Shown here piece after piece: positions 3,201-49,795 of a stretch of DNA of 64,000 nucleotides. A model generated the notes under the pieces. The model made no database searches. It saw nothing but the letters and a program-made list of their open reading frames with translations, and was not told the origin of the DNA. Source of the stretch: Chiridota heheva (lineage: Eukaryota; Echinodermata; Holothuroidea; Apodida; Chiridotidae); contig JAIGNY010003268.1 in assembly GCA_020152595.1 (NCBI GenBank), positions 305,501-369,500 on the forward strand, read 5' to 3'. The translations under genes and the position numbers were made by a program. How positions within the stretch are numbered: position 1 is the first letter of the stretch; each line of letters starts with the position of its first letter.

Positions 3201-6200
3201 CAGGCCGATACTGACAGCTGTTATATATACAGACAACACCAACAAACTGCAGCAGTCCTTGAATAAGGTTAATAGTTCTCTCATTAGTGACAGGACCATA
3301 CCAGTAGCATACAGCAAAGCTAATTACACCTGCTACAATAAAATATATAAGGATGTAATCCCTGTAATCGGAGTTGATGAAATTATCCGCAATCCACTTA
3401 AACAGGTATAAAACAAGAGCCCAACCTCCACATAAAAAGGCACCAGCACCAATTTTCTGTTGAAGAAAAATTACAGTCAGTCAGTAGAAAGCAGATGATA
3501 AGCTTTCAATCTTAAAATGTAAAAGCTCTCAAAAAGTACATGATTATTGATATCATTTCTTCAGTAATATGAATAGTAAATTATACAAAAATTTGCCATC
3601 TTAATAATCAAGATATTCATGAGGATATTGTACAGAAATAACTTACAGATGTAGATCTTTTTCAGTCAGTTACGTGTAAATTTTGGGATCATCGTCTGGT
3701 ATTTGTATGGCGTTGAACATCTTTGTCAGAAGCAAACCGACACGTCATGCAGTGTACAACAAACAAAATTTACTAGTTTTTATGTGAATATTTGCGGTTT
3801 TCATTTCTGATACATTTTCAAAGAATGTAGCTTTATTGTGTCTTCATGTGCCAGTAGTACATCAAAGTACCACAGTCCACAAAAAACAAAAAGACTTGCA
3901 CCATAATAAACCGACAACTGACCATATCATGCATTCTGCATCATGCATATGACTATTACTTTCACACTTGTGGCATAGTCAAACCTTGGAATATCGAGTC
4001 CCTAGTTTGACTTTTTTATACGAGTGCTCCACCCTGCCCCTCATTACCTCCACCCTGCCCCTTTTCACTAAGCACTCTACATTTTGTTCACATAAACATA
4101 CTTTTGACAACTATTTCTCATTCTTTTTATACTATTACAGCTCCCCAGTAAAACTTAACAAGATGCAGCTACACTACTTGTTGTATTGATTACTCCCTTA
4201 TTTACATTTCAAATGTCCTGACCCTGCCTTTAATGTACCCATAGTGCCTTATAAATGCTCCTTTTTGGTCAGCAACTGTGACACGCCACCCCTTTTCTGG
4301 ATCAAGCTAGGGTTTGATTATGGAGATGATTTATTTTGGGATGAAGTATCTTCCATTATATACAAAAGGATGCATGTCTTAGTACTCTTAGATTTACAGT
4401 AGAAAACCTAAAGTTTTTGTATTGGGATGGGGAAGGATCTAACCCCATTCTCCACACCCTCCCCCTGGGTACACCACTGTTTCTCAAACACACCTTGAAC
4501 TATGCTTATTACATCGATCAAAGAATAACAAAATAAAAAGACATATTTTAAAAGTTTTTTTACCTTTGGTATAAATCTGCTTAGTATGTACATAAGCACC
4601 AGAAGGGAAGCAAATACGCCGATGGTCATACCAGTAGAATAATGAAAGAATACACTCCTGAAAAGATAAATGGAAATATGGTCTGAGAAATAGAAACATG
4701 TTCTGATAAATAGAAACACGTTCTGATAAATGGAATAGAGTCTGATAAATGGAATTATGGTCTGATAAGTGGAATATGGTCTGATTAATGGAAATATGGT
4801 CTAATAAATAGAAACATGTTCTGATAAATGGAATATAGTCTGATAAATGGAATTATGGTCTGATAAGTGGAACATGATCTGATTAATGGAAATATGGTCT
4901 GATGAATAGAAAAGTGGTCTGATAAATGAAATATGGTCTGATAAATTGACACATGGTGTGATAAATTGACACATGGTGTAGTAAATGGAATATGTTGTGA
5001 TAAATGATATATGGTTTGATAAATGGAAATATGGTCTGATAAATGACAATGTGGTCTGAAAAATGGAATAACATAACAAAACAAGATTACGGGCGAAGAA
5101 AGGTTAGTCACCCAAATTCATAAGAGAGATTCCTTACTTCAGGAATAAGTCTTGTGGCTCTTTGCTGAACCTGCTCCAAAATGAACTTATCTTTCTCATA
5201 TAAGGGACTCCAAGCTTGAATAGCATACTCAATGTGAGGCCTGACTAACTGCTTATACAAATTAAGAACAACCTCTCTACGAAGAAAACAAAAATTTCTT
5301 CTAATCAAACCAAGCATCCTATTTGCCCTTGCAGCTGCTAAAGCACACTGTTTAGAAGGCGTCAGATTGCTAGTAATGACAACACCTAGATCCCTTTCTT
5401 GATCAACACATCCAAGATTTGAACCATTCATGCAGTAATCAAAAGCCAAATTGTTCTGACCAAAATGAATAACTTTGCATTGATCAACATTGAATGACAT
5501 CTGCCATGTTTGGGACCAAGAAACTAACTTATCCAGATCAGTTTGCAAAAGTGAAGAATCCCTACCATCATCAACAATCCTGTACAGCTTAGTGTCATCA
5601 GCAAATTTACAAATCCTGGAGCCAAAAGCACCATCAATATTATTAATGAAGATTAAGAAAAGAAGCGGGACCCAATACAGAACCCTGACGAAAACCACTT
5701 GTAACCTTCTTCCATGGAGATACTTCACCATTAACAAGAACTCTTTGTGACATGTCAACTAACTAAGAATATATCCAACTGGCACACTTTCCCTCCACAC
5801 CAAGTGCTCTCTTGTTTTCATCATGAGCCTGCCTAATGGAACCTTATCAAATGCTTTTTGGAAATCTAAATAGATAACATCCACATTGTGACCAGAATCA
5901 ACTAATTTAGTAACATCACCAAGAAACTCCAATAAATTAGAAAGACAAGACCTCTTAGTAAGAACCCATGATGGGACAAATTCAACAAACCATTGACCAG
6001 TAAATGATCTAGTACAACATCCTTAACAATTGACTCCATGAACTTGCACACAACACTAGTAAGACTCACTGGCCTATAGTTACAAGGTAAACTGTGGTCA
6101 CCCTTTTCAAAAATAGGAGTGACATTAGCAATTTTCCAATCACTAGAAACAACACCAACATCAAAGCACTTTGAAAAGATAATACTCAGGGGAACAGAAA

Positions 6201-9200
6201 AAACATCAGAACACTCACGTACGACAGCAGGAAGTATACCATCTGGACCGGGTGCCTTATTTGAAATCAAATAAAGACGGAGGATTGAGAGGGGAAAAAA
6301 AGGGGAAAATAGGGTGAATTTGTGAGAGAAAAAAATTGAGGTGAAAAGAAAGGGGTGTGTAAGGTTAGGTGTAGAAGGAAAGACAAAGAAAGATTAAATA
6401 TGGTGGATAAGGTTGTTGTTGCAGAGGAAGTTGATAATGTTGGAGGAAGGATTGTTTTTGAAGAGATCCAAGATTGAGGTGGGTGAGGAGAGAAAAGACC
6501 TGGAGTTCAGGTATAGGGGACAGGTTAAGAGGATATGCTTGATGGAGAGGTCGGTGTTGCAGAAAAGAAGAAAAATTCTTCCCTAAGGAGGAAAGAGCGT
6601 GAAGTTTGTTGAGGACTTGTGGAATGAGGGGGTTGGGCCAGAGCATGTTGAGGATGCCAGTGAGTACAGATTTAGAGTAAGAGAAGATGACGAAAAAGAT
6701 GGAAGGAAAGTTCTATGAAGTTTAAGGCCAGGAGGAGGGTCTTTGCTTCAGAAGAGTAGATAGAGGTTGCGTTGGGCAGCCTTGAGGAAAGGGTAAGGCT
6801 AGGACAGGTTGTGGCTGCAGGTTTGGTTTGTTGATGTTTAACGGCACCGCAATAGTCACAGTCAATTGTGCCAAGAGGGTGTAAATAAATTATTGATTAA
6901 GAGTTAGTTAGGATAGTGAGGAGATGGAAGGTTTGTCAGGGAGATAAGGGGGAAAAGCAGAATAAAAAAATTAAACAAACTTTTGGTGAAAAGAAAGGGT
7001 TATGTAAGGTTAGGTGTAAAAAGGGAGGGGAGGGGGGAGTTAAATGTGGTGGAAGAGGTTGTTGTTGCGGAGGAAGTTGATGATGTTTGAGGAAGAATTG
7101 TTTTCGAAAAAGTCAGAGATTGAGGATAGTGAGGAGAGAAGAGATCTGGAGTTCTGATATAGGGGACAGGTTACGCAGATATGCTTGATGGAGAGATCGG
7201 TGTTACAAGTGGGGCAGAGAGGGGCAGGGGAGCCAGCTAAGAGATGGGAATGAGTGAGAGAGGAGTGGCTGAGGCGGATGCGGAGGCAGAGGAGCATTCC
7301 CGTTTGGAGCCGTCGGTGAAGAGGAAAGAATAGTCATGGAAATGTCTACTGAGTTGGCAGTACTTGGAGCGGAAGAAGGCTGGGCTGAAAATGTTCAAAA
7401 TGCCTTCTCCAGCTTGAAATTGGTTGGGGGTAAGGTAGAGATCAAATCGTCTCTATCGGATTTATCTTCGCTTTTTCAAAGAGAATGGCAAAGGATTAAA
7501 AAACAATGGATTTACATAAGAAACCAGAGTCATACATCACACTAGTAACACATTTGTATATTCGCACACAAATCTGTAAAAAGCTGTAAAAGAACCAATT
7601 CTTTAACTGATTTTGATGGAATGTTTGCTTTCTTCATGTTTTTTAGTGGATATTAAATCAATTTAACTAATGTTACCTCTACGAGTCCATATAACTTTAA
7701 ATTTGAAATAAAAGTTTCAATTCATAATCATTGTACTTTAAATCTTGAAGGTTGCTCTTACCTGCTGAGTGTGTGGGCTGACAGGTAAAGTACAAGACCA
7801 CAAAGCAAAATGCCAAGGTACAAAATATCAACAGCTGGCAAAGACAAGAATGAAATATTCATATACAATAGATGGCACTATGGTAAAATCATAATACCTA
7901 CATTAAGTGTGCAAGCTCTTTCCTTTCAGTGCGCTATAATAGGGGCATTAATAATATGCTCAATGTGCATCAGATAGAGGTGTGTGCACGTGCAAACATC
8001 GATTTTGGCCAAAATCGGCGGTTGCAGTGCATACTAAACGGAAAGCGGAGGTACACGTCGTGTAGCACTCCCTGCTTTTACTATTACATGTATTTGAAAT
8101 AAGATGTACATTGGCACTATATGAATACCATCAGTCTATTTTTCTATGGTAAAATCATCATACCTAGTACTCCCTACTTTTACTATTATCTCTCTCTCTC
8201 TCTAGGTGCCGAGACTGGAACAGACATTATTATTATTATTATTATACCAAATATTATAGTGCTAAAATTCATGAAAATTAATGCTCATAAGCACTGTACA
8301 TGAAATATAATATAAATTAATATGATTAGAAGTTATAGTCCATATGCTAACTTAAATAGATGTGTTTTTGATAAAGATTTAAAAGTCTTTAATCTGAACA
8401 GTCTCGAACATCACTTAGAAGGTTATTCCAGAGTGCTGATGCTATTCTTCTAAGAGATTTGTCACCATAATTGACAGTTTTTGTTCGTGGTACCACGAGA
8501 CTTCAAGATCTACATGACCTGAGTGCACGCACTATATCACACAAACATGCCTCTAATCTGCAAATGTTGCTATTCTGGTCTGTAATACTTTTGGGGCTGA
8601 AAGACAAATATACCTGCGTATCATCAGCGTACATGTGATAGGCCAGCTTATGCTTATACTGATAAGGCTCCCCAGTGGCTTTGTGTACATAGTGTAAAAC
8701 TTGGGGCCTAAAACAGACCCTTGGGGTAGGCCAGAGTCTAAAACAGTTAGCCTAGAGGCATGACCGTTGATAATAACAGTCTGATGCCGATCACTGAGAT
8801 ATGATGATATCCACTTCAGGGCTGTTCCTTTGATACCATACATGTTTTCAAAACGTTGAATTAGTGCCTGGTGATCTATTGTATCGAACGCTGCTGACAA
8901 GTCCAACAACACCAGCAGCGCTAACTCAGACTGTATATCAGCCAGTACTTTCAAAAGTGCTGTTTCAGTTGAACAGAACTTTGTGGATGCACTCTGGAAA
9001 GGCTTACATTGGCGATCATGGCCCTCCAGTCATTTCTGTTTAGAGCTAAATGCATAAACTTATTGTTACTTAGGCTGTTGTTGGTTGCCCAGTTGTTTAA
9101 GCTTTGGACATATTTAACTCGCTGCCTTCCTCTGCTTCTTTTGCCCTCAATTTTCCCACATACTGCAAGCTGTTCCAACCCACCCTCCTGATAAACATGC

Positions 9201-12200
9201 TCGAAAAATTCCATCTGTCTCCTTCTTATGGCATTGAGGAGGGGCCTGTCCATGCCTGAAGCTATCAGGACATCATCTTTTGTTTTCCTTTCTGTCCGAG
9301 ATACTTTTAACATTCTCCTAATGAACCACATTTCTGTAGCTTCTAATCTTTTCTTGATGTCACTAGTAATTGTCCAGCATTCACAGCCATAGAGACGAGT
9401 AGACCATACATATGCCTTCAAGACACGGACTTTTGTGTCCATTCCATTATTTCTATTCTTCAGAATTGGATTCATTTTAGTAAACATGTCTTTGGCAATT
9501 GCAATGCGTTTTCTTACTTCGTTAATGCACCAACTATCTAATGTTATTGTGTAGCCCATGTACTTAAACTGTTGTACTTGTTTAATTATTTCACCTTGGC
9601 TTCGTATACTACATAATGGGTTTATGGCTTTTTTTTTAAACCACTATACAGTCTGTTTTCTTTACATTGAAAGACAGCCCTCTCTTTTCACTTTCCTCTA
9701 CAACTCTATCCAGCAGAGGCTGCGTTTTTCTTCTGACTCTGCTATACAGTAAGTACCATGTCATCTGCATAGTGTAGCTTATTCATATTATAGCCTCCAA
9801 CTTTCAGCCCCTCAAGACTGTCGATGTTACCAAGTATTGTTTTACTGTAAATGTTGAAAAGATCTGGTGACAAAACACACCCCTGCCTGAATCCTCTTCG
9901 AATTACCTTAAATTCACTGTAATCTCCTTCAAGTCTTATTGCTGCTTCCTGGTCCCAGTATAGGTTTCTTATAACTCTTAGGTCTTTTCCGTCAATGTTC
10001 AAATTACTGAGTATTTCAAAGAGATCTTCATGTTTGACTTTGTCAAAGGCTTTGGAGTAATCAATGAAAGATAAATATAAATCTTTCTGTACTTCTATGC
10101 ACCTTTCCATGATCATTGATAGTGTAAACATTGCATTCCTAGTGCCTTTGTGTACAACAAAACCAAATTGCGTTTCTGAAAATTTCTGGCCGGATACTAT
10201 TTCTCATCTTGGACATTAGAACACGAAGCAAGATCTTGGTGATATGGCTCATCAAATTAATGGTCCTGTGTAGTTCGCACTATTATATGTATCCAAAATA
10301 GATGCACATCAGCACTATATAAATACCATCAGTCCACTTTAATATGGTAAAATCATCATACTAGCACTCCCTGCTTTTACTATTATTTGTATTCAAAATA
10401 GATGCACATCGGCACTATATAAATACCATCAGTCCACTTTAATATGGTAAAATCATCATACTAGCACTCCCTGCTTTTACTATTATTTGTATTCAAAATA
10501 GATGCACATCGGCACTATATAAATACCATCAGTCCACTTTAATATGGTAAAATTATCATACCTAGTACTCCCTGCTTTTACTATTATATGTATTCAAAAT
10601 AGATGCACATCGGCACTATATAAATACCATCAGTCCACTTTAATATGGTAAAATCATCATACCTAGCACTCCCTGCTTTGACTTATATTTATTCAAAATA
10701 GATGCACATCAGCATTATATGAATACCATCAGTCCACTTTAATATAGTAAAATCATCATACCTAGTACTCCCTGCTTTTACTATTATTTGTATTCAAAAT
10801 AGATGCACATCGGCACTACAGTATAAGATTAGCCTCAGTTCATTTTTCTATGGTAAAATGATCATACTTAGTACTCCCTGCTTTTACTATTATATGTATT
10901 CAAAATAGATGCACATCGACACTATATGAATACCATCAGTCTACTTTAATATGGTAAAATTATCATACCTAGCACTCCCAGCTTTTATTATTACATGTAT
11001 TTAAAATAAATGTACATCGGCACTATATGATTACCATCAGTTTACTTTAATATGGTAAAATTATCATACCTAGCACTCCCAGCTTTTATTATTACATGTA
11101 TTTAAAATAGATGCACATCGACACTATATGAATACCATCAGTTTACTTTAATATGGTAAAATTATCATACCTAGCACTCCCAGCTTTTATTATTACATGT
11201 ATTTAAAATAGATGTACATCGGCACTATATGATTATCCTCAGTCCATTTATCTATGGTAAAATCATCATACCTAGTACTCCCTGCTTTTACTATTATATC
11301 TATTTAAAATAGATGCACATCGGCACTATATGAATACCTTAACCCTCAGTTCGAGAAGTTCATCTAAAATAGATGTATATCGGAACTACATTAATACCCT
11401 CAATTCCAGAAATTAATCTAAAACAGATGTACATCCACACTATAGTAATATCAGGCTTCCCAGTGACTCTTTTTTTAAATAAAGGTTTTTTTAAAGGTTG
11501 GAAAAGTTGAAATAAAGGTTTTTAAAGGTTTTGGATTTAAATGAAAAGGTTTATAAAGGTTAACTCATGGAATAAATTTTCATACAATGAGCATATTCTG
11601 GGGCAAAAGGCAGTTGGTGGCGCCAAAAGTCCATTACTTACATGAAGTTGGAAATTTTATTTTGGTCCTGCTACTTTTTAAATGTGTGTTGAGAACAGAT
11701 ATGCTATTAAATGGATGTTTATACTTACCAATGAAGCTAAAACCTTGGCACTCGAATCATTTACCTTACTTAACTTTGAAAATAAAGGTTTTTAAAGGTT
11801 TTAAAGGTTATTTTGAAAGGAATAAAGGTTCAAATTGTCAATAAAGGTTTTTAAATGTTTTAAAGGTTTTTAAAGGTTTACCGGGAGGCCTGTAATATCC
11901 TCAATCCACTCTTCTATGGTAAAATCATCATACCTCCCTGCTTTTTCTTTTACATGCATTACAGGATTCTAAGATATTCCAAAGTATTGTATTCAAGGAA
12001 CCCAACATAAATGTTTTTATTACATACAATTTGCCCCAATATGAAACATAAAACACATCTCAGTCATGGCAGACACAAAGCTTGTTTTGATTCAAAACAC
12101 CCACAGATATTCCTTTTGTACAGTATAAACATGTTCTATATGTTCCAGTGTGTTCTAATTCATTGGTTATGATATGAACACAACTATTCAATGGGAGTTT

Positions 12201-18200: not shown

Positions 18201-21200
18201 TGGCGAGGTCTATAGCAGGCAGAGAAAATTTTCCCTGCAAATCGAGAAAATTTGGGCAACTTTGTGAGGTTCATTGGTGGAGCCTTGGAAGGTGTCCAGG
18301 AGCACTGGGGCAAAGCCTTGGAAGAGGTCCAGGGTTCATTGGTGAAGCCTTGGAATTGGCTTGGGTCCCAGGGTGAAGCGTCAGAAGCTCTGAAGATTTC
18401 TTTCCAAAATGTAATTGATGAAAAGAAGACAATTTTATATTCTGTTTAAATCTACTCAATCAGTATTTGGGTTAACATTTTCAAAACAGACACAGGAAAA
18501 GTTTCCCCTGCAAATTGAAAAAATTCAGTCAATATTGTGGGATTCATTAGCAAAGCCTTGAAAGGGGTCCAGGGGCAAAGCCTTGAAAGGTTTCCATGGG
18601 CAAAGCCCTGGAAGTTCTAAAGATTTCTTGTTTTTGATGCCCAAAAATGAAAAATGTTCCAAAATGTAAGTAGGGACAATTTTAAATTTGAATGTTAAAA
18701 TCTACTCAAATAATTGGATTAGCATTTGGTTACCATTTCTAAACAGGCATAAGACAGTAGGAGAAATTTCTCCTAAAATTGAGAAAATTTAAGCAAAACT
18801 GTGGAGTTCATAGACGATGCCCTGGTCTAAAGATTTTTGGTTTGATTCATGAAAACCACTGAAAATTTCACTGCAAAGTTCCCAATTGTAAATCATGGGA
18901 AGAAGTCCTGAAAAGGGCCCCTTGGAAGGGGTCCAGGGGGCCAAGCCCTCAAAAGCTCTAAAAATTTATTGTCTTTGATGCCCCAAAATGTCTGAAAATC
19001 AACACAAACTGAGAAATTTAGGAAAATTTAAGTGATGATAAGAAGACAATTTTAAATTTTCATGTTGAAATTTACTCAGATAAACATATGGTTACCATTT
19101 CTAAACTGACAGAGGAAAAATTTCCCCGAAAAACTTATAAAAACAAATTTAGGCAAATTATGCGGTGGTTCATTTCTAAACTGGTCTAAAGATGCCCTCA
19201 AAAAATCTTCACAAACAGACATACATGTAGGGTAGGCCGTGTGGTTTTCGTCCACCTTCCCTGTTTTTGTCCAATTACGTATTTGACCTGTTCATGCATC
19301 CATTAGATTTAGACCAATAAATGTCTGTAAACTGCCAAAATATTTTCTTGAGTGTTGTCTATAATATAATTAATTGGATATAGAACACGAAAAGCTAATT
19401 TTATCAAATTTATATACTGCTGGCAAGCTCACTTTTTCACTTTTTTGAGAGGTCAGATAATAATTTTTCTACTCAGATCCTGTCTAAATAAAACTAGAAC
19501 GGTAAATACCGTCGTGGTTCGCATGCCCATGCAAATTGACACCCATATTATATGATCCAGCCAATTATAAAAATGGCATCTCACACAAAGTCCCACATGG
19601 CATCCCATGTACCACATGGCATCTCACCCCATGTCCCACATGGCATCCCATCCCATGTTTCATATGGCATTTCACCATATCTTCCACATGGCATCCCACC
19701 CCATGTCCCACATGACATCCCATGTGGCATTCCATCATATGTCCCACAGGGCATCCCATCCTATGACCCACATGGCATTCCACCCTATGTCCTACATCCC
19801 ATGTACCAAATGACATCCCACCTCATGTCCCACATGACATCCCATGCCTTGTCCCATATGGCATTCCACCATATCTCCCACATGGCAAACCACCATACAG
19901 TGTCTCACATGGCAATCCACCATATGTCCCAAATGGCATTCCACCATGTCCCACATGGCATCCCACGCTATGATCCACATGGATCCCATCCTACATGTAT
20001 ATCCCACATTAATCCAACCATATGTACCACATGACATCCCTCCTTATGTCCCACATGGCATTCCGCCCTGTGTCCCACATCAGTGGCTTCCCACCTGATG
20101 TTCCACATAGCATCCCACCATATGTTCCACATGGTATCCCTCCTAATGTCCGAATGACATCCTACTTTATGTCCCACATGGCATCACATCCCATGTCCCC
20201 ATACCCTATGTCCCACATAGCCTCCTACCCTATGTCACACATGGCATCATACCTTATGCTACACATGGCATCCTACCTTATGTCACACATGGCATTCCAA
20301 ACTATGTAACACTTTGTGTTACTTGTGGCATCCCACCATGTCCCACATGGCATTCTACCCTGTTCCACATGGCATCCCACCCCATGTCCCACATGGCATC
20401 CCATTCCATGACCCACATGGCATCCCACCCCATGTCCCACATGATATCCCACAGGCTCCATAAGAAGTCTCATCCTAGCTATCAGTCCCTGATTGAGCAT
20501 ACTATGTATGAAAGTGTCAGTTCATATAATAACTTATACGCAAATGACTTGTTGAAATGGGGTGGGATGCCATGTCCCACATGACATCCCATTTCATCCC
20601 ATGTCCAACATGACATTCCATCCCATGGCAATCCACCCTTGTCCTCATGGCCTTCCACCACATATTCTATGTGGCATTCCACCCTGTTCCACATGGCATC
20701 CCACCCCATGTCCCACATGGCATCCCACCCCATGTCCCACATGGCATCCCACCCTATGTCTCACATGACATCCCATAAGCTCCATAAGAAGTCTCATCCT
20801 AGCTAGCACAGTATCGATTGAGCATACTATGTATTGAAGTGTCAGTTCATATAATAGCTTATATGCAAATGAGTTGTTGAAATGGGGTGGGACGCCATGT
20901 CCCACATGACATCCCATATCATCTTAATCCACATGACATTCCTTCCCATGGCAATCCACCACATGTCCTGCATGGCATTCCACCATGTTCCACAGGGCAT
21001 CCCACCCCATGTTCACATGGCATTTCATCCCACCATGTCCCACATGGCATCCCACCCCATGACCCACATGGCATCCCACCCCATGTCCCACATGGCATCC
21101 CACCCCATGTCCATTATTATTATAATCATTATCATTAGCATCTTCTACAGCCCAAATGCTTTACAAAAGACAAAACATGAAAGACACAATAAAAACTTAA

Positions 21201-32900: not shown

Positions 32901-35900
32901 TGTTGGCATCCCTGGCAATGACAGGGCTGATGCAGCCGCTAAGTTTGCCCTCAACCTCCCCCCCACCTTATTTCCCAAAACCCTTCTGACATCAAACCGC
33001 TTATTGCTTCCCTTTTTCGTTACCGCTGGCAAACCCCATGGGACTTCCAAATTGATAACAAACCCCATGTCATCCAGCCCTCCATTCCGATCAAACCCAC
33101 CATCCACAACCTCTCTCGTGTCGACAACGTTTATATTTCACATCTTAGAATAGGTCACACTCACTCTCACCTCCTTATTAGCTCCCCCAACCTCTCTGCA
33201 ACAACCTCCAGTCCAGCTTCACCTTACTTGCCCCTGTACAACCTTCCCAGAGTTCTTCCAGAAAACCTCCAGATAAAATTATCTCCTTCCTTAATCATGC
33301 TTCCCTCTACAACCATATTTAGTCCTCCTCCCCACCCCCATCTCTCTTTTTTTTTTTTTTTCACCCATGCACCTCCTCTCTTGATCCCAGCTTTCTGACT
33401 TTTAGTTCTTGTATTTCTCTCAATCTCCCCCTGTTTTCTTTTCTTCCTACCTCTAGAATGATCTAACCTCTTAGAAACAATTTGACCCTCATTGTTGTGG
33501 TGCCGTTAAGCCCTCATCAAACAAACAAAAAGTTATATTTTGTGAAAGAAATGTTTAAGTACTTTCAAATGATACTTAAGATTACTCTTATAGGTCTTTG
33601 GTAAGGTGGTTTGAAAATGGCGATATTATTGCCGCGTAGTAGAGTAAGGTTAAAACATGTACATCTTTTGATAATGACATGTGAGTTCTTTTCTGCTTTC
33701 TTTCTTTTCTTTGTGTTTATTACTTTATTTGAAGAACTGATTCTTATTCTGGTGCTCTGCTCTCTTGTCAGATATTTTTATTTATATATTTTTTATTAAT
33801 TTTTTTTTATTTAAACACTAAATAAATTATCATTTCCATAATATTTAACAAAAAACTAGCTCACTGGTGATATAGTACTTGATGGAATTGTCAGAAATGT
33901 ATGTATTCTTGTACTGTATGTTAGAGAAAAATTTATGAATTTCTGTGCAAATGAGTAATGTAGAGAGTATATTGCAGAAGATGTTAAATTAATTGATTTG
34001 ATTAAAATTTGAGCTTTCCTTTTTTTTAAAGGTTTAGTTTATAATGAATTTAGCAAATACTGAATAGAAACAAGAGGTGTTGCTGTATAAAGAAATTTTC
34101 AAACTTGATTCTTAAAGGATAAGTTTAAAGGCGAAGCATGTTCCTTTTTGTCTCACCTACGAAGCAGGATGAGGGATCATTCTGTCGTCAATCATCCTGT
34201 CATCAGCGTCGGCGTCCACAAATGTTTAACATGAGCTTATAACTTTCAAATGATTGGTTAAACGTTTGAGCTTCTTTTTTTTTTTAAAGGTTTAGTTTAT
34301 AATAAATTTAGCAAATACTGAATAGAAACAAGAGGTGTTGCTGTGTAAAGAAATTTTCAAACTTGATTCTTAAAGGATAAGTTTAAAGGCGAAGCATGTT
34401 TTTTTTTGTCTCACCTACAAAGCAGGATGAGGGATCATTCTGTCGTCAATCATCCTGTCGTCAGCGCCGGCGTCCACAAATGTTTAACATGAGCTTATAA
34501 CTTTCAAATGATTGGTTAAACGTTTGAGCTTCTTCTTTTTTTAAAGGTTTAGTTTATAATAAATTTAGCAAATAATGAAAAGAAACAAGAGGTGTTGCTG
34601 TATAAGGAAACTTTCAAACTTGATTCGTAAAGGATAAGTTTGAAGGCGAAGCATGTTCCTTTTTGTCTCGCCTGCGAAGCAGGATGAGGGATCATTCAGT
34701 CGTCAATCATCCTGTTGTCAGCGTTGGCGTCCACAAATGTTAAACATGAGCTTATAACGTGAATTATGAATGGTTTACGTTCATGTAACATGGCACAGGG
34801 GTAGAGGACAATGTTTAAATGAGCATGATTGAGAGATTGTGTGTGTGTATACTAATTAGCTTATTTGCATAACAATGAAAATATTTATATTCATGCTCTT
34901 TTAAATTAAAGTGGGTGTGTTGATTTTGTTTTACACAAATGATTATATATGTGAAGAGCATTGCCTACACTTAATGGTGAAGTGTAGGTGCATATTAATT
35001 AGGTTATTTGCATAACAATAGACTTGTGTACAAAATGTTTTACCTGAGATCATAACTTAAGTTTTGAATGGTGTACATTCATGTAATTTGGTACAGTGGT
35101 AGAGGGCATTGCTACTGTACAGTTGAACATGATTGAGGGGATGTGTGTGAATACTAATTAGTTTATTTGCATAACATTGAACATATTTGTATCTATGATA
35201 TCTCTTAAATTAATGTGGGTGTGGTGATTTGCTTACACAAATGATCATTTATGTGAAGAACATATTAATGGTGTATAATTAGATTATTTGCATAGCAATA
35301 TACTTTTGTGCAATCAACTTGAATTATGAATAGTGTACATTCATGTAAAGTGGCAAAGGGGTAGAGGAAGGGGTAGAGGAATAAATGACCATGATTTTCT
35401 TTCTTTGGGGGTTGCATATTAATTAGCCTATTTGCATAAGAATGGAAATATATATTTTTCTGATATTTCTTAAATTAGGGTTAGTGTTGTGTTGTTATTT
35501 TCACAAATGATATGTGAAGACAATTGTCTACACTAAATGGTAAGGTGATGTTTGCATATTTAGCAGGTTATTTGCATAATAGATTCCATGCAGAATGTTA
35601 GACTTTTGCTCATTACTAAGTTAGGAATGCTCCACATGTATATTTACAAATCTTACTGCTGCAGGTATGGAAAGCATTGTTCATTTGGATGTGTATATTT
35701 GCATAACAATGTGAATACTTGTTTATACATCTCTCCTAAAGTAGTGAGGATGTGGTCAGATTATACTAAGGTAAATAAAATAAAGTGTTGTGTTCATGTT
35801 AATTTTGTTATTTGCATAACAATAGAGTTTTGTGGTTCCCAGGTTTAGCCAGGTCAGATATGTATGGTTGGGGCTTATTTTGCATTATTACTTACCTGGG

Positions 35901-41900: not shown

Positions 41901-44900
41901 ATATTTTGTGTAAAAATCATGTTGTCTTTAGGAGTTACATGTTCTGTATTCGACATGATAAGCGAGTAGTAAGGGGAGCCTATACAGCTGACTACCAATC
42001 ATAAGCCAGCATTGCTATGACATCATGTCTCATTTGCATATACTCAACAATGCTTCTGACCAGTAGTGGGCTGTATAGACTTCCCTGTAATTTTATCATA
42101 CGACCTCTCCTTTTTTGGGAGATTGGTCTATATACGACCGTCTCCCTGTTTTTGATAGGTCGGTTGGTTGGTGGAGGAAATTATTTCATCGAGGAATAAG
42201 GTCACCTCCCAGTGTTTGTTAGGAGAATAATAATAATGATAATAAAGAATAAATAAATCAATGAAGAAAAAAAACACACATAACCTTGACGAACAAGTAT
42301 GGACGTTATAGATGAGAATGTTAAAGTGAATTTTTTTCTTTCTTGAATAGTTGGTGGCTCTCAAAAGAGTCTTTGGGTTCTATATCTGTATCACAGCATT
42401 CGATCAACTGTCCTCCCGTAGTCCACTGATGTTAAGCGTCTCCTTTGTTCTTTTCGGTATCTTTCTTTTTCTGTTTCTCTTATTTCCAAGGTGGATTAGT
42501 TATGCACTTCTCCCAATACGCGGCATGTAAAATAACTGGGCTGTAGACAGAATAAAACTACCAACTTTGACAATTTTCAATCATTCGATCAGTTATTTTT
42601 CAAATCCACCAACAGTAATGATGGCAATGCTTTACAGTAACTTCAACATTCTGGAGAGCTTTGAAGACGGTGACGGCTGGTTGGAGAACAGCGAGGACTG
42701 GGACTTCAACGAAAAGCCACCTTTCAAAGTAAAAGTGGACAATACTTTTGAAGAGGCAGAGGAGGAAGAGGACCAGGGCGTGACCAATGGCGAGTGGGCC
42801 AGAGTGTTATTAACACTTGACGAGGACTGGCTGATTGCCAACGAGTGGCCAGATACATACTTACCTTACCTAGCTGCTTCGTGCCAAGTGGCACATAAGG
42901 CCTCCACACAATGTTTCCACTCAGTCCTGCAGGCTGCAGCAATCATAATCTTGTTCCACGTTTTCCATCCTGCCTTGTTTCTTTCCTTTTAAATGGTTTT
43001 TCTCCAAGTCTCCTTCTTTTGCGTTTTCAGACAGGTGCCCATATTAGAGCTGTCATGCAGTTGTCGTTCTGTTGTGCCTTAATATGTGACCAATGAATTT
43101 CTGTTTCCTTAGTCTGATGTCATCGCTAAGGAGTTGGATATTAGCTCTTTGTAGTACTTTCTTATTTGAAATGATCTGTTGCCATCTTATGTTAAGGATT
43201 CTTCATAGGCATTTGTGTTGGAAGATGTCAATACGTTTTTCGTCACCATTTTCCATTTTCCAGGTTTCGCTTCTGTACAGAAACAAAAAGAAAGATCAAG
43301 CAAAGAAAAAAGAAATGCACCTTTGGGTGGAGAAATGGTACAGCGGTACCGGCAGAGAAATTAGAAAAGCAAAGGAAAAGATGGAGGTGGACGAGGTTGT
43401 AGAAACAGGGTGCAGCGTTGCGACCCAAACACAAGAACCAATGTGTGAATGCCCGTTCTGCCCCATTGCTTAAGGAGGCAAAAATAGAACCCAAAGGCTC
43501 TTTTAAGAGCCACCACAGGTATAAGAAAGAGAACGATTCTTTAAAACATTCTTATCGTTTTTTAAATATTTGTAAATATTTTTGTTTGTGTGTGACATTC
43601 TTATCATTTGTAACGTTCATACTTGTTCGTCAAGTGTTATATGTGTGTGTGTTTTTATATTTGTTTATGTATTATTTATTTTTTATTATTATTCCTCTAA
43701 CAAACCCTGGGGAAGACCTTATCCCTCGATGAAATAATTTTCCCATCAACCAGCCGACCAATCAAATGTAGCAAGACGATTGTATATAAACTAATCCTCC
43801 AAAAAGGGAGAAGGTCGTATGATAAAATTCCAGGAAAGCCTATACAGCCCACTACCAGTCAGAAATGTTGTTAAGTACATGCAAATGAGATATGATGTCA
43901 TAACAATGCTGGCTTCTGATTGGTAGTCAGCTCTTTAGACTTCCCTTACTACTTTAGTGCCTAGTGCACTAAAATAATAGAATAAGACCACTTTTTAGGC
44001 CTGAACTTTCTTCCTAATAAGCGCCCATGCTCCGGGGCTGTGTACAGTATGCTATTTAAATTGCATTGTGTAAACTGGTTCTATATTAGCTCCACAATAT
44101 CCACCACTAAAGCATTGCGAGCATCAGATGCAAAATAAGCAAAAACTTATTCAAATTAATCAAATGAATGATGTTATCAGTCAAAAAATGTTTGATGGGC
44201 GCTTATTAGAGCAGGGGATCTTAATACGTCAAACACGATAATACATTTCTTTAAAAAATAATTAATTAATTAATGTCCTCTTCCTAAATTACTGAAAGCA
44301 TTTTTTTTGTTTATTTTTGAGATAGGGTATAACATACATTTTATAAGAACGTGTTTTGCACATCAGTTCATGAACCTTACACTCTAAGTATAACATGTTT
44401 TTGTTTCATATGAATACATAAGAAATGTCATGGATCTGCCTTTATTACATCACATTTACACTGAGGTCACTTTTTAACACGCTCATGCAATATTTAAAAT
44501 GCAATAATCTCTAAAGCGGAAAAACAAATCAACATGATTTTTACACCAAATTGTTACTTTAATAGTCCTCTATCATATATTTGAAAATTTACAGGAATAT
44601 TCCTTTAAAGGAAGTTGTTGCTCTTTACCAATTACATCATAAACAAGCATTACATATTGGCCTGTATCGACTCAATGTTCAGCGGTCAGCTGCCCGAATC
44701 ATGAAACGTCAAAAAGTTTACCCAATATCATCTGAACTGGTCAACCTCCACTGGTTCCCTGTTAAACATCGCATTGATTTTAAAGTCCTCATTATGATCT
44801 TCAATGCTCTCCACAACCTCGCTCCCACCTACTTCTCAGATTTACTTACAATCCGACGGAGTCCCACACACCTCAGATCCTCAACATCTTCTACTTTACT

Positions 44901-46595
44901 TCATGTCCTCAAAACTCATCATGTTATATTTGCAGACAGATCTTTTTCTTGCAATGGCCCAAAACTTTTTGGAATAAACTACCATCCTTTATCAAGAATG
45001 CTACATCTATCACCTTTTTTAGAAAAGACCTACCTTTTCAAACAAGCTTACCAGAGATGACTACCTGTATTTCAAAGCGTCTTAGTGCAAACTTTTAGTT
45101 TTGGGCACTATGTAAATTTCATTGATTGATTGATTGATTGAACCTAATGGCCTAGATGACAATTCAACCCTGTCAGTTCATTACTTTGAATTGAATAGTG
45201 TCAGCTTCCTTTGGATTAAATTTTGTTCTTATGTATATTTGTAGTCCGGAATAAGGAATGTTGTATTGTTTTTGTTTTCTTCATACAGATACTTTGCTAA
45301 CAGAATTCTTTGAATTCTATTCCCTATTGGATTTTGCAACAACTATCATCAGTCCAATGCAAGGTGAAGTCACTCCAATTGGTCAGTTTTGTGAATCGAA
45401 TGAGGGCTTTAAAAGAGGACCAATGAACATCCAGGATCCTTTAGAGCTCACTCACAATGTCACCATGAATGTTAACGAGAGAGTAGCTTCGTCTTTCAAG
45501 CAGGAATGCAAGAAAGCAGCCTTGCTGTGTATCACAACAAGATTTAAGAAATACCCAGTTCGGACTAGCGAGGATGACCAACCAGCTCATTGGGGCGTGG
45601 TCTTGCTTTTTCAGCCTCCGCAACCAACTCAGAGTAAGAAAGAGAGTGACTGCTCTGAAAGTTTCAACATTTTGCTAAGCCTGAAAAGTCAACAGCTGAG
45701 TAAAGATTTTATTGCTCAGCATCAGGATTCGGACAGCTTGAAGTCTGCATGGCAGAGAGGAGTTCAGCAATTAGTGCTACATATTTTAAAAGATGCATTG
45801 TCAGTGAAGTGTTTTGAAATGGAAGATGAGATGGATAGTTGTGAAGCAGACGACAACTCTGTATCTGAATCAATTCCACATGGTGGGAAGAGTAGGGGTG
45901 TGGAGTCTATGAGAAGTAATGATGAGGCTCAGGGGGGTGGTGGTGGGGCTCAGGGAGGGGGTGATGCGACTCAGGGAGGGGAGGTTGGAGCGATGCAAAT
46001 TGGAGATATTTCAGCTAATAGCGAAATGCCCATACGTAAAGAGATTAAAGGGAAAAGAGGATATGGTGAGGATGATACAAATAAATTGACATCAAAAAGG
46101 CAGAAAACTGAAAGTAAAACCAAACTGACGGAAGCGTCAGATTTAAAAGATGTCACTGCGGACGGGAACTTCTCCAATGACAAAAGTCATAAAGAGCAAG
46201 AAAAGATTAAAATCAGGACAGAGTTGGCAGACGCTGATGAGGGAGACATTTCTGGTAGTTTACAAACGACCGAGGCGTACAGTTGCGAGATCTGCCATCA
46301 GGTTTGGATCGGAAGAAGAAAAGTTAGGAGACAGATTCAGCAAAGCGGCGATGCAAAAGAGGGGCTGGAGCTGGAGAAACAAGTCACAGAGAAAATCATA
46401 GAGCTTCAACGGAGTCCAGGATCTAAAAGAGAGGATGTTAAATGCCTTTCAAAATTTGTCATGAATTTAAAAACAGACGATGAAGGTAGCGTTGTAGTGG
46501 ATATGGCGCTAAGTGAAGGAGAGGGAGACTTTAAAGCTTTCTTTAATTTTCTTGAAGTATATTTGCCCAAATTGGTTAATCAGCAGACATTTTAG
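23865..46595 (+). CDS. TUT1: TUT1/Star-PAP-like terminal uridylyl/adenylyl transferase, 8 exons
   Basis: TUT1 adds uridines to U6 snRNA and, as Star-PAP, adenylates selected mRNAs in the nucleus. Coding exons: 23865-23961, 31184-31374, 36619-36831, 38384-38659, 39615-39832, 40280-40503, 41337-41429, 45289-46595. All introns are GT-AG, all phases agree, total 2619 nt (872 aa), very close to the human protein. Domain order: U1-type C2H2 zinc finger (C23, C26, H39, H45; spacing C-x2-C-x12-H-x5-H), RRM (about 62-135), and a nucleotidyltransferase core with YGSSVN (212-217) and catalytic D225, D227 and D326. Then come the PAP central domain (LTNYALTWLVIFFLQ), the PAP-associated motif GPMNIQDPLELTHNV (about 481-495), a low-complexity acidic/Gly insertion and a C-terminal block (CEICHQVWIGRRKVRRQIQ). 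Introns are large and repeat-filled. Gene identity is very secure; only the exon-1 choice is an inference. Confidence 0.95.
25278..28620 (+). pseudogene. Decayed intronless copy of a large multicopy invertebrate gene with PIN-like and CXC motifs
   Basis: Pieces in changing frames keep the order of a large protein family that I recognise from many marine invertebrate genomes. They are VSDLHAADARYQ (25350), SSPGLANMLLFYMAASS (25480), FHNFGVTCSYDKVLKFK (25800), SDPDTMMTAMCKAHRLTVKC (26500), LSGMHVLMSFVGCVGTLMAN (26660), NKLRLDCLIKTVLIMMMFVR (26930), MRHNPGLWNAIWSDMFI (27150), then VICDDTDVFVF (27860) and a GCDTVAKLSG-like site (28035). The last two resemble FEN/PIN nuclease acidic motifs. A C-terminal cysteine cluster follows (CGTARCGYYLAQLACTVFCK, 28510), like tesmin/TSO1 CXC repeats. 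Stops, frameshifts and a deletion around 27570-27800 show it is dead. It lies in TUT1 intron 1, same strand. Function of the family is unknown to me. Confidence 0.8.
28621..31183. other. Rest of TUT1 intron 1
   Basis: Unique AT-rich sequence. Small open frames at 29662-29922 and 30155-30475 resemble nothing I know. The frame at 30706 is discussed as a rejected alternative first exon. No transposon termini were seen. Confidence 0.5.
31184..31374 (+). CDS. TUT1: TUT1 exon 2: zinc finger completion and RRM first half
   Basis: Acceptor TTCTTCTTCTTAG/AACAAT, donor GAAAAA/GTAAGT. Encodes QCVKDHVQGKKHQR (zinc-binding His pair) then KSVFVGGLCRLVSELELTDF and FSEFGPISQVIIDKEK, with the RRM RNP2-like VFVGGL and the beta2-beta3 region that in human TUT1 reads VVMDKDKG. 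Ends in phase 0. Confidence 0.95.
31985..32062 (-). ncRNA. tRNA-like sequence with intact A and B boxes (SINE head or tRNA pseudogene)
   Basis: The minus strand reads TAGTGTAGTGGATG (matches the A box) and, about 35 nt on, GGTTCGAATCC (perfect B box) in CCAGG-TTCGAAT-CCTG, a near-complete T arm. The would-be acceptor stem halves do not pair (ATTACG versus GACTAG) and the anticodon arm is poor, so it is not a functional tRNA. It lies in TUT1 intron 2. Confidence 0.6.
32460..33515 (+). pseudogene. RNase-H-type non-LTR element, plus-strand 3' copy
   Basis: Reads through frames as DGSKEGDKTAAAAIIQTSPS (about 32610), FLAEAKAFLLTLNFI (32700), FSDSKAVLNFL, NLKWDNPTSHLLHKH, and WISSHVGIPGNDRADAAA-type sequence (32890-32940). 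These are the D-E-D-H elements of an RNase H domain. The 3' signature GGTGCCGTTAAGCCCTCATC at 33500 ends in a CAAACAAACAAA tail. Same family as the minus-strand copies at 13.2-16.3 kb. Frameshifted throughout. Confidence 0.82.
34013..34770. repeat. Three tandem copies of a 258-bp unit
   Basis: GGTTTAGTTTATAATGAATT-type starts occur at 34031, 34289 and 34546 (intervals 258 and 257). Each unit continues through ACAAGAGGTGTTGCTGTATA, TCACCTACGAAGCAGGATGA, GTCGGCGTCCACAAATG and TTAACATGAGCTTATAAC. Copies are about 95% alike by eye. TUT1 intron 2. Confidence 0.92.
34755..36060. repeat. Diverged tandem array rich in ATTTGCATAA motifs, intron 2 copy
   Basis: Units of roughly 290 bp (two half-units of about 120-160 bp) repeat AATTATGAATGGTGTACATT, CATGTAACTTGGCACAGGGG, TAGAGGACATTG, ACTAATTAGCTTATTTGCAT and AACAATGAAAATATT. 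ATTTGCATA(A/G) occurs near 34864, 35006, 35167, 35287, 35433, 35573, 35699 and 35813. The block ends with a CTAATCTATGTTACTTGTAA ... CAGGTGAGACTTACTAAC segment shared with the intron 3 copy. Confidence 0.82.
36619..36831 (+). CDS. TUT1: TUT1 exon 3: RRM second half
   Basis: Acceptor ATTTTTAG/TCGAAA, donor AAAGAT/GTAAGT, 71 codons, phase 0 both ends. Encodes SKYAIVEFTSPEAATKAVES (RNP1-like strand) and NGRKILVRPKENKPFMPRRR, then SSDEVAMFNNLAELKD leading into the catalytic domain. Confidence 0.95.
36895..37145 (-). mobile_element. tRNA-derived SINE, minus strand
   Basis: The minus strand starts at about 37143 with GAGGAGCAGTTGCACAGTGG then TTAAGG (A box GCACAGTGGTTAAG) and has GGTTTCGACTCC (B box) about 35 nt on. 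The tRNA-unrelated body reads GTCAGCTGTAAAATGAGTGC, CATGCATGGACTGGCATTCC and GTCCAGGGGGAATC, down to about 36895. It begins about 60 bp after the TUT1 exon 3 donor. No clean target duplication was found. Confidence 0.75.
37200..38135. repeat. Octamer-rich array, intron 3 copy
   Basis: Starts GTCTTGCCTGCGAAGCAGGA and repeats the same units as the intron 2 block (GAATGGTGTACATTCATGTA, ATTTGCAT near 37389, 37532, 37840 and 37963; ATTAGCAT at 37693). It ends with the shared CTAATCTATGTTACTTGTAA ... GGCAGGGGAGATTAAC segment. Shared start and end imply a mobile or duplicated unit. Confidence 0.82.
38384..38659 (+). CDS. TUT1: TUT1 exon 4: nucleotidyltransferase core with two catalytic Asp
   Basis: Acceptor CTCAACAG/CATATC, donor ATCAG/GTATGT, 92 codons. 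Encodes LRYLICGLLKEVFCEF then HVYPYGSSVNGFGREGCDLD and IHLSLSH. G-S-S/x-N and D225-x-D227 are the helix-N and metal-binding residues of the DNA polymerase beta-like fold. Ends in an acidic run (DDDDDEEEVADQ). Confidence 0.97.
39615..39832 (+). CDS. TUT1: TUT1 exon 5: third catalytic Asp
   Basis: Acceptor GATTTACAG/AGCTAT, donor AACAACAG/GTAATA, phase 2 out. Encodes EEVLQFVCQVLRKCVPSCQN then VRVIPSARKPLVKFIHKESS and LHCDVVLNN-R; D326 in H-C-D-V-V completes the catalytic triad. The acidic N-terminal part is shorter than the long linker in mammalian TUT1. Confidence 0.97.
40280..40503 (+). CDS. TUT1: TUT1 exon 6: PAP central domain
   Basis: Acceptor TTATCCATTAG/ATTGTC, donor GACG/GTAGGA. Encodes LRNTELLQLYTQLCSNVRPL, IFNIRQWAKCRQLAGN and GPRLTNYALTWLVIFFLQKK. 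R-P-L and N-Y-A-L-T are the conserved contacts of this family. Phase 1 out. Confidence 0.97.
41337..41429 (+). CDS. TUT1: TUT1 exon 7: short linker exon
   Basis: Acceptor TTGAATAAAG/ATTCGG, donor TGCAG/GTAAAG. Encodes SGTTVTIDKWNCSFQSDVEK then IPKAATETSA; W-x-C-S-F matches VDGWDCSFPRD of vertebrate TUT1. Phase 1 at both ends. Confidence 0.95.
42337..42376 (-). terminator. Histone-type 3' stem-loop and downstream element, left arm
   Basis: Minus strand 42376-42351: CCAAA, then GACTCT-TTTG-AGAGCC (one mismatch, A for G, in the 5' stem), then ACCAA. Ten bases after the stem comes CAAGAAAGA (42345-42337), the canonical sea-urchin purine-rich element that base-pairs with U7 snRNA. It lies 19 nt after the stop of the short minus-strand frame ending at 42391. 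Mirror counterpart of 43491-43531. Confidence 0.78.
42391..42489 (-). CDS. Short basic minus-strand ORF remnant in the transposon
   Basis: Minus frame reads STLEIRETEKERYRKEQRRR then LTSVDYGRTVDRML and TGA at 42393-42391, closed upstream by TAA. Too short to be a whole protein, so probably the C-terminal remnant of a second, divergently oriented element gene. Its stop lies 19 nt before a histone-type stem-loop. Unrecognised family. Confidence 0.4.
   Translation of the reverse strand: MEIRETEKERYRKEQRRRLTSVDYGRTVDRML
42567..42860 (+). CDS. Acidic transposon ORF, N-terminal part (interrupted)
   Basis: From ATG at 42567 (or the Met pair at 42618) the frame reads MMAMLYSNFNILESFEDGDG, WLENSEDWDFNEKPPFKVKV, FEEAEEEEDQGVTNGEWARV and LLTLDEDWLIANEWPDTYL. 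It then runs into a minus-strand retroelement fragment at about 42860. It probably once joined the frame at 43285-43473. Acidic and Trp-rich; I recognise no family and assign no function. Confidence 0.55.
42858..43285 (-). pseudogene. Non-LTR retrotransposon C-terminal fragment nested in the transposon
   Basis: The minus strand reads LYRSETWKMENGDEKRIDIF then QHKCL, RILNIRWQQIISNKKVLQRA, IQLLSDDIRLRKQKFIGHIL, GKKQGRMENVEQDYDC and EWKHCVEALCATWHEA in broken frames. This is the C-terminal end of an RTE-like element similar to 8985-9559. It splits the transposon's plus-strand ORF, so it inserted after the transposon gene was formed. Confidence 0.75.
43285..43473 (+). CDS. Lys-rich transposon ORF, C-terminal part, with histone-type mRNA end
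   Basis: Frame reads KKKDQAKKKEMHLWVEKWYS, GTGREIRKAKEKMEVDEVVE, TGCSVATQTQEPMCECPFCP and I-A, then TAA at 43471-43473. The C-x-C-x2-C ending could bind metal, but I recognise no domain. Likely continuous with 42567-42860 before the nested insertion. The perfect histone-type stem-loop begins 22 nt after the stop. Confidence 0.55.
   Translation, partial: KKKDQAKKKEMHLWVEKWYSGTGREIRKAKEKMEVDEVVETGCSVATQTQEPMCECPFCPIA
43491..43531 (+). terminator. Perfect histone-type 3' stem-loop with downstream element
   Basis: Five-base 5' flank CCAAA (43491-43495), stem GGCTCT (43496-43501), loop TTTA (43502-43505), stem AGAGCC (43506-43511), 3' flank ACCAC (43512-43516). Every consensus position of the replication-dependent histone stem-loop (CCAAA-GGYYYU-UYUN-ARRRCC-ACC) is met. 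AAGAAAGAG at 43523-43531 fits the histone downstream element, about 11 nt beyond the stem as in urchin histone genes. The gene it terminates is not a histone. Confidence 0.85.
43975..44235. mobile_element. MITE-like insertion with TAATAAGCGCCC ends, in right transposon arm
   Basis: TTCCTAATAAGCGCCCATGC at 44012 and TGATGGGCGCTTATTAGAGC at 44196 form inverted ends about 200 bp apart, related to the MITE at 22000. It interrupts the correspondence between the right and left arms of the TTAA transposon, which have no equivalent in the left arm. Confidence 0.6.
44612..45142 (+). pseudogene. CR1/L2-like retrotransposon 3' end
   Basis: Plus frame 44660-45058: LYRLNVQRSAARIMKRQK, SSELVNLHWFPVKHRIDFKV, LIMIFNALHNLAPTYFSDLL, ADRSFSCNGPKLFGINYHPL and LEKTYLFKQAYQR-stop. 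This is the classic C-terminal end of CR1/L2 reverse transcriptases. The 3' UTR ends in GGGCACTATGTAAATTTC and an (ATTG)n tail at 45119-45142. It begins right beside the TTAA transposon and is 5'-truncated. Confidence 0.88.
45289..46595 (+). CDS. TUT1: TUT1 exon 8: PAP-associated domain, acidic region and C-terminus
   Basis: Acceptor TTCATACAG/ATACTT; 434 residues plus TAG. Begins TLLTEFFEFYSLLDFATTII and has GPMNIQDPLELTHNVTMNVN and RVASSFKQECKKAALLC. Then a low-complexity section (AQGGGGGAQGGGDATQGGE) with KGKRGYGEDD and TSKRQKTES, a likely nuclear localisation region. The terminal conserved block is SCEICHQVWIGRRKVRRQIQ, ending FFNFLEVYLPKLVNQQTF, which mirrors the HHFLQVFLPQ ending of human TUT1. 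Confidence 0.97.
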
Positions 46596-49138: not shown

Positions 49139-49795
49139 GTGTGGTGTGTCCTTAAGAACAAACTGGTGTGTCCTTGAGAACGGACCGGTGTGTCCTTGAG
49201 AACGGACCGGTGTGTCCTTGAGAACGGACCGGTGTGTCCTTGAGAACGGACTGGTGTGTCCTTGAGAACGGACCGGTGTGTCCTTGAGAACGGACCGGTG
49301 TGTCCTTGAGAACGGACCGGTGTGTCCTTGAGAACGGACCGGTGTGTCCTTGAGAACGGACCGGTGTGTCCTTGAGAACGGACCGGTGTGTCCTTGAGAA
49401 CGGACCGGTGTGTCCTTGGACCGGTGTGTCCTTGGACCGGTGTGTCCTTGGACCGGTGTGTCCTTGGACCGGTGTGTCCTTGGACCGGTGTGTCCTTGGA
49501 CCGGTGTGTCCTTGGACCGGTGTGTCCTTGGACCGGTGTGTCCTTGGACCGGTGTGTCCTTGAGAACGGACCGATGTGTCCTTGAGAACGGACCGGTGTG
49601 TCCTTGAGGACGGACCGGTGTGTCCTTGAGAATGGACCGGTGTGTCCTTGAGAACGGACCGGTGTGTCCTTGAGAACGGACTGGTGGTGTCTTTGAAAAC
49701 GGACTGGTGTGTCCTTGAGAACGGACCGGTGTGTCCTTGAGAACGGACTGGTGGTGTCTTTGAAAACGGACTGGTGGTGTCCTTGAGAACGGCGT
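49139..49795. repeat. 22-bp minisatellite with a homogeneous 16-bp variant block
   Basis: About 20 copies of a 22-bp unit (GTGTGTCCTTGAGAACGG then ACCG) flank nine copies of a 16-bp version lacking AGAACG (GTGTGTCCTTGGACCG; 49413-49557). Edge copies vary (CTGGTGGTGTCTTTGAAAAC). The minus-strand 328-codon open frame across it (QGHTGPFSRTHRSVLKDTPV) arises because 22 is not a multiple of three, so all frames cycle without stops. I do not call it a gene. Confidence 0.95.

Follow-up and report, generated by a model that had tools for sequence, protein, structure and literature searches.

Histone-type 3'-end signals in the terminal repeats of a Maverick/Polinton family from Chiridota heheva

The 64-kb window analysed here, meaning the whole stretch of DNA under study, comes from Chiridota heheva (GCA_020152595.1, contig JAIGNY010003268.1, positions 305,501-369,500 of the forward strand) and contains a 1,989-bp element at 41965-43953, which starts with AGTAGT and terminates with ACTACT. 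This element is an old relic, namely an internally deleted copy of a multi-gene Maverick/Polinton family, rather than the working two-gene transposon that a sequence-only reading of the same DNA had proposed. As judged from sequence conservation among its relatives, a 3'-end module composed of a stem-loop, an ACCA and a purine-rich downstream element is a trait of the family. Stem-loop ends of this kind have been regarded as almost exclusive to histone mRNA, and their presence here suggests a coupling of part of the element's gene expression to the host histone pathway. Taking all the evidence together, we consider it probable that the element is a deleted Maverick whose terminal repeats bear histone-type 3' ends, and that its transcripts would be cleaved by the histone machinery, carry no poly(A) and be expressed with the timing of histone mRNA.

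The 3'-end module in the window and in the family

The stronger of the two signals in the window is a histone-type stem-loop with a perfect stem, GGCTCTTTTAAGAGCC, at 43496-43511 on the plus strand, 22 nt past the stop codon (43471-43473) of the CPFC gene. It is matched by Rfam RF00032 (Histone3) at 43491-43535 with 36.5 bits (E 5.4e-7 for the whole window; gathering score 34), which is the sole Rfam match at gathering score within the 64 kb, and it is followed on the same strand by the histone downstream element AAGAAAGAG (43523-43531), 11 nt past the stem-loop, the most frequent offset in the family. The second stem-loop, with one broken pair, is located in the left repeat at 42371-42356 on the minus strand; with 27.7 bits (E 3.6e-5 for the 2.1-kb stretch scanned) it falls short of the gathering score, and its downstream element AAGAAAGAA (42344-42336, minus strand) is of the AAGAAAGAG type and lies at an equal distance. 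Both signals had been pointed out in the sequence-only reading and are confirmed by these matches; the minus-strand stop codon that it placed 19 nt before the second stem-loop, however, is a TGA out of frame with the local gene remnant.

The mirrored pair had also been taken as a double occurrence beyond chance. The family-wide counts given below do place the stem-loop beyond chance, but the two occurrences are not independent, because the stem-loops belong to the two arms of a single inverted repeat, each near the inner edge; the pair is thus one event, by which the evidence is not doubled, and an independent double origin was dropped. The same holds for L009, L010 and L011, in which the repeat extends 14-46 nt beyond the stem-loop on the gene side.

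We searched the window's own assembly (1.10 Gb in 3,744 contigs) and found the exact 16-mer GGCTCTTTTAAGAGCC at 65 sites, while the reversed control gave 0. All 65 were inspected: 64 belong to the element family, as assigned by shared flanks or gene remnants, and one lies in a host H2B gene. For scoring, 63 sites were kept, with the H2B site excluded and L013 dropped for having the same flanks as L012. Just downstream of the stem-loop, AAGAAAGAG is present with at most one mismatch at 46/63 sites (28 exact) and at 0/63 in each of three control stretches, and its offset from the stem-loop is 11 nt in 51 of the 55 sites with at most two mismatches. An automatic sorting of the 63 sites by gene gave groups of 27, 15 and 7 with 14 unsorted; this sorting is approximate, with an apparent error in at least one row (L057).

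The reverse search started from the 18-mer TATAAGAAAGAGAAAATT, which covers the downstream element and includes no letters of the stem-loop, and returned 212 sites against 1 for the reversed control. Among 40 loci picked by the 18-mer alone (40 of the first 42 sites listed), 37 belong to the family and all 37 carry a stem-loop, with a perfect 6-bp stem in 29 and the loop TATA in 33; the other three (L070, L072 and L092) represent another repeat without stem-loop. The sequence-only reading would have been undermined by copies lacking the stem-loop, and the family copies found either way, 64 of the 65 exact sites and 37/37 members picked without regard to the stem-loop, do not undermine it on this point. 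Moreover, 18 Histone3 matches at or above the gathering score were obtained in the 14 loci of relatives scanned with Rfam. In the younger subfamily, which has the loop TATA, Histone3 was matched in 5/5 pieces with 37.5 bits, two of the pieces being both ends of one copy. The TATA form occurs at 204 genomic sites (reversed control 0), and the exact 18-mer is in place at 27 of the 50 distinct TATA sites listed from these. Two subfamilies with different loops, TTTA and TATA, both keep the module.

The module follows three small genes, namely CPFC and the two genes that terminate the polymerase arm and the capsid arm. The distance from stop codon to stem is 21-34 nt in 53 of the 56 terminal-gene sites that a simple pattern could place out of 100 (57-94 nt in the other 3) and 16-43 nt for CPFC (13 sites placed). 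The earlier claim of histone-type 3' ends on non-histone genes is thus supported and holds for the family, and the spacing of these ends is close to what the host histone genes show.

A 3' segment is also conserved after the penultimate genes of both arms; AATAAA lies close by in several cases, and a stem resembling GACTCT..AGAGTC and an element resembling CAAGAAAGAGA come next. It was located at L010 7849-7907, L015 7845-7903, L017 2396-2469, L019 6401-6459, L021 7500-7559, L024 2614-2666, L129 6224-6264 and L130 805-845, and the stem and CAAGAAAGAGA-like element are best preserved in L021 and L017. At several of these gene ends AATAAA comes past the stop codon, and farther along there is a variant stem accompanied by a good downstream element; the variant stem GACTCT/AGAGTC was not recognised by Rfam. 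Either a relic or a signal combining poly(A) and histone features could explain the segment.

Histone-type processing and its alternatives

Host histone genes for comparison were found in the repeats L067/L068 on contig C3536, which by eye include H2A, H2B, H3 and H4 with several copies frame-broken. With E values up to 0.1 allowed, Histone3 was matched 12 times there, and 7 of these matches reach the gathering score. The host stems are identical to that of the element in 10/12 cases, and the other 2 have a one-base deletion; the host loop is TTTC in 9/12 and TTTA in three H2B copies, two of which are those with the one-base deletion. In the host a purine run ending in GAG lies about 12-20 nt past the stem, and AAGAAAGAG of the element is at 12-20, so that the spacing of the downstream element is close in the two. 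The upstream flank, in contrast, is AAAAC or ACAAC in the host versus CCAAA in the element, and the sequence outside the motifs is different as well. Since its flanks and surroundings are unlike those of all 12 host ends read, the module does not appear to derive from these genes; what the two share is the functional motifs only, and the reading is not undermined by the concern that fragments of a histone cluster had been captured.

The proposed mechanism follows from the arrangement of the element. Its two gene blocks point outward in the family, with the outermost genes running up to the inner edge of the terminal repeat; as the outward blocks read into the repeat and the repeat carries the 3'-end signal, a single sequence would serve both outermost genes. 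The order of the signal would be the stop codon, mostly 16-43 nt, a stem-loop of the SLBP type, ACCA, and finally the purine-rich U7 snRNP element at about 11 nt from the stem. Histone 3' ends are formed by a machinery comprising SLBP, U7 snRNP and CPSF73. Cleavage of the element's transcripts by this host machinery after ACCA, leaving no poly(A), is most likely, as it explains most simply the combination of stem-loop, flank, downstream element and spacing. Histone-type mRNAs are known for their S-phase timing, and the small accessory proteins, including a protein of isoelectric point (pI) 11 at the polymerase end, would be produced alongside histone mRNA in S phase and in the early embryo.

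A further-reaching proposal, to which we give even chances, is that the element lineage has placed its terminal genes under the replication-dependent histone programme of the host. The repeats would then act as portable histone-type 3' ends, the non-polyadenylated mRNAs would be synthesised and translated during S phase and early cleavage but degraded at other times, and the proteins, including a strongly basic and possibly DNA-packing one, would be timed to DNA replication.

Several observations weigh against histone-type processing. Within 40 nt upstream of the stem-loop, GATAAA is found at 53/100 sites and AATAAA at 17/100, which leaves room for poly(A) formation. The 16-mer of the younger TATA-loop copies is a perfect DNA palindrome, and its loop is unlike the TTTC and TTTA of the host. 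In the loci scanned, the capsid-like, protease-like, PC4 and polymerase genes have no module following them. Compensatory stem changes, which the sequence-only reading had expected, were seen in 0/37 of the loci picked by the 18-mer, and covariation was dropped as a proof, the sole double change noticed being the GACTCT/AGAGTC variant after penultimate genes. SLBP reads the sequence of the stem. For this reason, and because the host stems do not covary either, the test of compensatory changes is a weak one.

The palindrome leads to the alternative that survives best, although we regard it as unlikely: the module would work as DNA, as a palindromic site in the repeat for replication, transposition or packaging, and its likeness to histone ends would be a by-product. 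Such a role would suit the position of the module in the terminal repeats, the perfect palindrome in the younger copies and the additional downstream motif GACATTCTTATC, which is largely conserved as well. It would also suit the 4/64 family sites (L040, L049, L050 and L061) that carry the 16-mer on the other strand and hence have the loop TAAA on the coding strand. A DNA site does not account so easily for the direction of the module, which has CCAAA before it, ACCA after it and the downstream element at about +11, all in the sense of the gene ending there. In addition, L009 and L010 have the module also after the CPFC gene, about 700 nt inside the outer repeat, and out of 4,227 Rfam families it is Histone3 that the module matches.

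Slightly less probable again is ordinary polyadenylation through the upstream GATAAA or AATAAA, with the stem-loop merely modulating stability or translation. Besides the hexamer counts above, the GT-rich sequence downstream in younger copies and the AATAAA right past the stop codon at several penultimate-gene ends argue for it. In the younger set, however, AATAAA is found upstream in 2/37, and the 80 nt downstream contain neither AATAAA nor ATTAAA in any of the 37, against a stem-loop in 37/37. A single capture of a histone gene end, carried since then without function, is very improbable: host H2B copies do have the same stem-loop letters, but the flanks are unlike the 12 host histone 3' ends, and the module has persisted after three genes and in both subfamilies, whose loops differ.

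The Maverick/Polinton family and its deleted copy

The relatives of the window element are a Maverick/Polinton family by their genes, (AGT)2//(ACT)2 ends, terminal repeats, 6-bp duplication and length, as read from their sequences. The polymerase arm contains, in order, DNA polymerase B, a 261-amino-acid acidic gene and a gene for a 156-amino-acid protein of pI 11.0. The polymerase is of the protein-primed type (PF03175; E 1.9e-36 in L130 and 1.4e-7 in L010). The terminal gene of this arm (L130 138-605, L129 6472-6939) is open in both copies; its protein has no homologue in the protein database, its predicted structure is uninformative (predicted local distance difference test score, pLDDT, 49.3), and a guess from its strongly basic composition is that it may bind DNA. 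An IVa2-like packaging ATPase was matched at one locus, partially, on the strand opposite to polymerase B (L129 2-310, minus; PF02456 Adeno_IVa2, E 1.4e-7, 31.2 bits, cut-off 21).

The capsid arm runs in the opposite direction, with a chromodomain open reading frame, a capsid-like and a protease-like reading frame, a PC4 domain protein (PF02229, E 4.1e-22) and the CPFC gene, after which L009, L010, L018 and L019 have one additional small gene. The chromodomain (PF00385, E 1.3e-8), which may belong to an integrase of the retroviral type, is in a reading frame upstream of the capsid-like gene in L015; the catalytic core of an integrase was not seen. The candidate for a jelly-roll capsid protein (L019 2754-3576), which we take to resemble F54H12.2-like proteins, has a predicted structure with pLDDT 33.7, and its pieces gave no significant match in Pfam, NCBIfam or PDB. 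The adenovirus-like protease candidate (L019 3748-4248) was recognised by eye, with no match in Pfam or NCBIfam. Viral contigs yielded no relatives of the capsid candidate, the polymerase, the integrase or the stem-loop pattern. A parvovirus, considered for the terminal palindromes in a long inverted repeat, was dropped once polymerase B, the ATPase and the AGT ends emerged in relatives.

Among 12 mirrored end pairs, chosen by eye from the first 100 listed 18-mer sites, 8 are spaced 17.9-22.3 kb and 4 are spaced 3.3-7.4 kb; a pair of about 26 kb on C124 was not counted. For the 6-bp duplication, 2 of 10 end pairs aligned out to the ends, those of C401 and C492. On C401, where the terminal repeats are 97.6% identical over 382 columns, ATACAC stands at both flanks as a 6-bp duplication, as seen by eye when two versus four AGT units are allowed for; the exact test of the script did not list it. 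No 6-bp duplication was found for C492. The AGT units of the C401 copy (L111/L112) are two at the left end and four at the right, as slippage in protein-primed replication might yield. On C2236, L012 and L013 have identical stem-loop flanks and stand head to head 13.7 kb apart, as an inverted dimer or a recombinant. L014 and L021 contain stretches of N.

In the window, the left terminal inverted repeat (41965-42388, no strand assigned) begins with (AGT)2 and has its inner edge just beyond the stem-loop, and the right one (43479-43953, no strand assigned) ends with (ACT)2. The two share 83% identity across 357 aligned positions (the left one against 43953-43601) and again 83% in an extra inner block of 47 nt. 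With these ends and no adjoining TTAA, the TTAA (piggyBac-type) transposon of the sequence-only reading is rejected. A possible decayed 6-bp target duplication, weak and judged by eye, is TAAGCG at 41959-41964 versus TTAGTG at 43954-43959, with 4/6 bases in common. An inverted-repeat search also gave an imperfect terminal palindrome of about 115 nt at 41972-42086 with its mirror copy at 43832-43946 (DNA folds z -2.34 and -3.11). These end palindromes resemble terminal hairpins, and the matches at both ends of L009 are oriented opposite to those of the window.

Between the repeats, the CPFC gene, coding for an acidic accessory protein, is interrupted. Its first part (42540-42842, plus strand) was found by tblastn with the L021 relative, and its last part (43285-43473, plus strand) has the terminus CECPFCPIA-stop. 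The gene is split by an antisense fragment of long interspersed nuclear element (LINE) type on the minus strand (42870-43285, limits approximate), seen by eye as LINE-like C-terminal text in a minus frame and without profile match. The plus-strand reading frame at 43093-43473, previously taken as a gene of the element, seems by eye to consist mostly of antisense LINE-type sequence, with the true last 60 or so codons of CPFC after it. On the minus strand, the terminal gene is left as a 3' stub of about 80 nt with broken frame (42399-42478), which shares 78-86% identity with the 3' ends of terminal genes in L028, L051, L044, L012, L065 and L043. The remaining family genes are absent from this copy; it has no polymerase B because it is deleted.

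Elsewhere in the window, an open reading frame at 45255-46595 has a PAP-associated domain (PF03828, E 3.9e-9) and is perhaps part of a terminal uridylyltransferase-like gene, as one of its exons. Reverse-transcriptase relics lie at 8553-10203 (PF00078, E 8.6e-21 and 1.4e-12). Large tandem arrays occupy 484-1175, 4665-5070, 10279-11338, 20326-21103, 34008-34758 and 49143-49792, with, among others, a 101-bp unit repeated 10.5 times and a 22-bp unit repeated 32 times.

Comparison with known systems

The element is of a known kind, and its histone-type 3' ends are, to our knowledge, new for Mavericks. No report of such ends in Mavericks, other transposons or viruses was found among the top-ranked titles and abstract openings of the open-access PMC literature searched, a search that is no proof of absence. 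If the reading is true, a mobile element having histone-type ends as a family trait would show that the histone pathway can be hijacked, and would account for the way in which its expression is timed to the DNA replication of the host. The family also offers natural variants of stem-loop and downstream element, with the loops TTTA and TATA, for testing the rules of SLBP and U7, and a Histone3 match inside a terminal repeat is a simple marker for similar elements among other Mavericks and adintoviruses.

Adintoviruses share with Mavericks a lineage of polymerase, integrase and capsid. In the available part of the adintovirus paper, no stem-loop 3' end is described and the word "stem-loop" is not mentioned (PMC11071296). 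Vertebrate Mavericks/Polintons, according to the accessible part of their description, have a protein-primed polymerase B, a packaging ATPase, an integrase and accessory genes at the ends, together with (AGT)2//(ACT)2 ends, 6-bp duplications, terminal repeats of about 400 bp and a length of 12.7-24.6 kb (PMC8097293). Of these, polymerase B, packaging ATPase, accessory genes at the ends, end motifs, terminal repeats, 6-bp duplication and length range are in common with the present family, and that part mentions neither "histone" nor "polyadenyl" (PMC8097293). The gene blocks, as described there, point generally toward the centre in vertebrate Mavericks and away from each other in the cane toad (PMC8097293), and those of this family point outward.

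With the 3' ends of replication-dependent histone genes, as represented by RF00032 and the host cluster, the element has in common the 6-bp stem, the 4-nt loop, AC.A or similar, the purine-rich element at a comparable distance and the short distance from the stop codon. It differs from these genes in that its own encode no histone, that the upstream flank is CCAAA, and that the loop is TTTA or TATA where the host mostly has TTTC.
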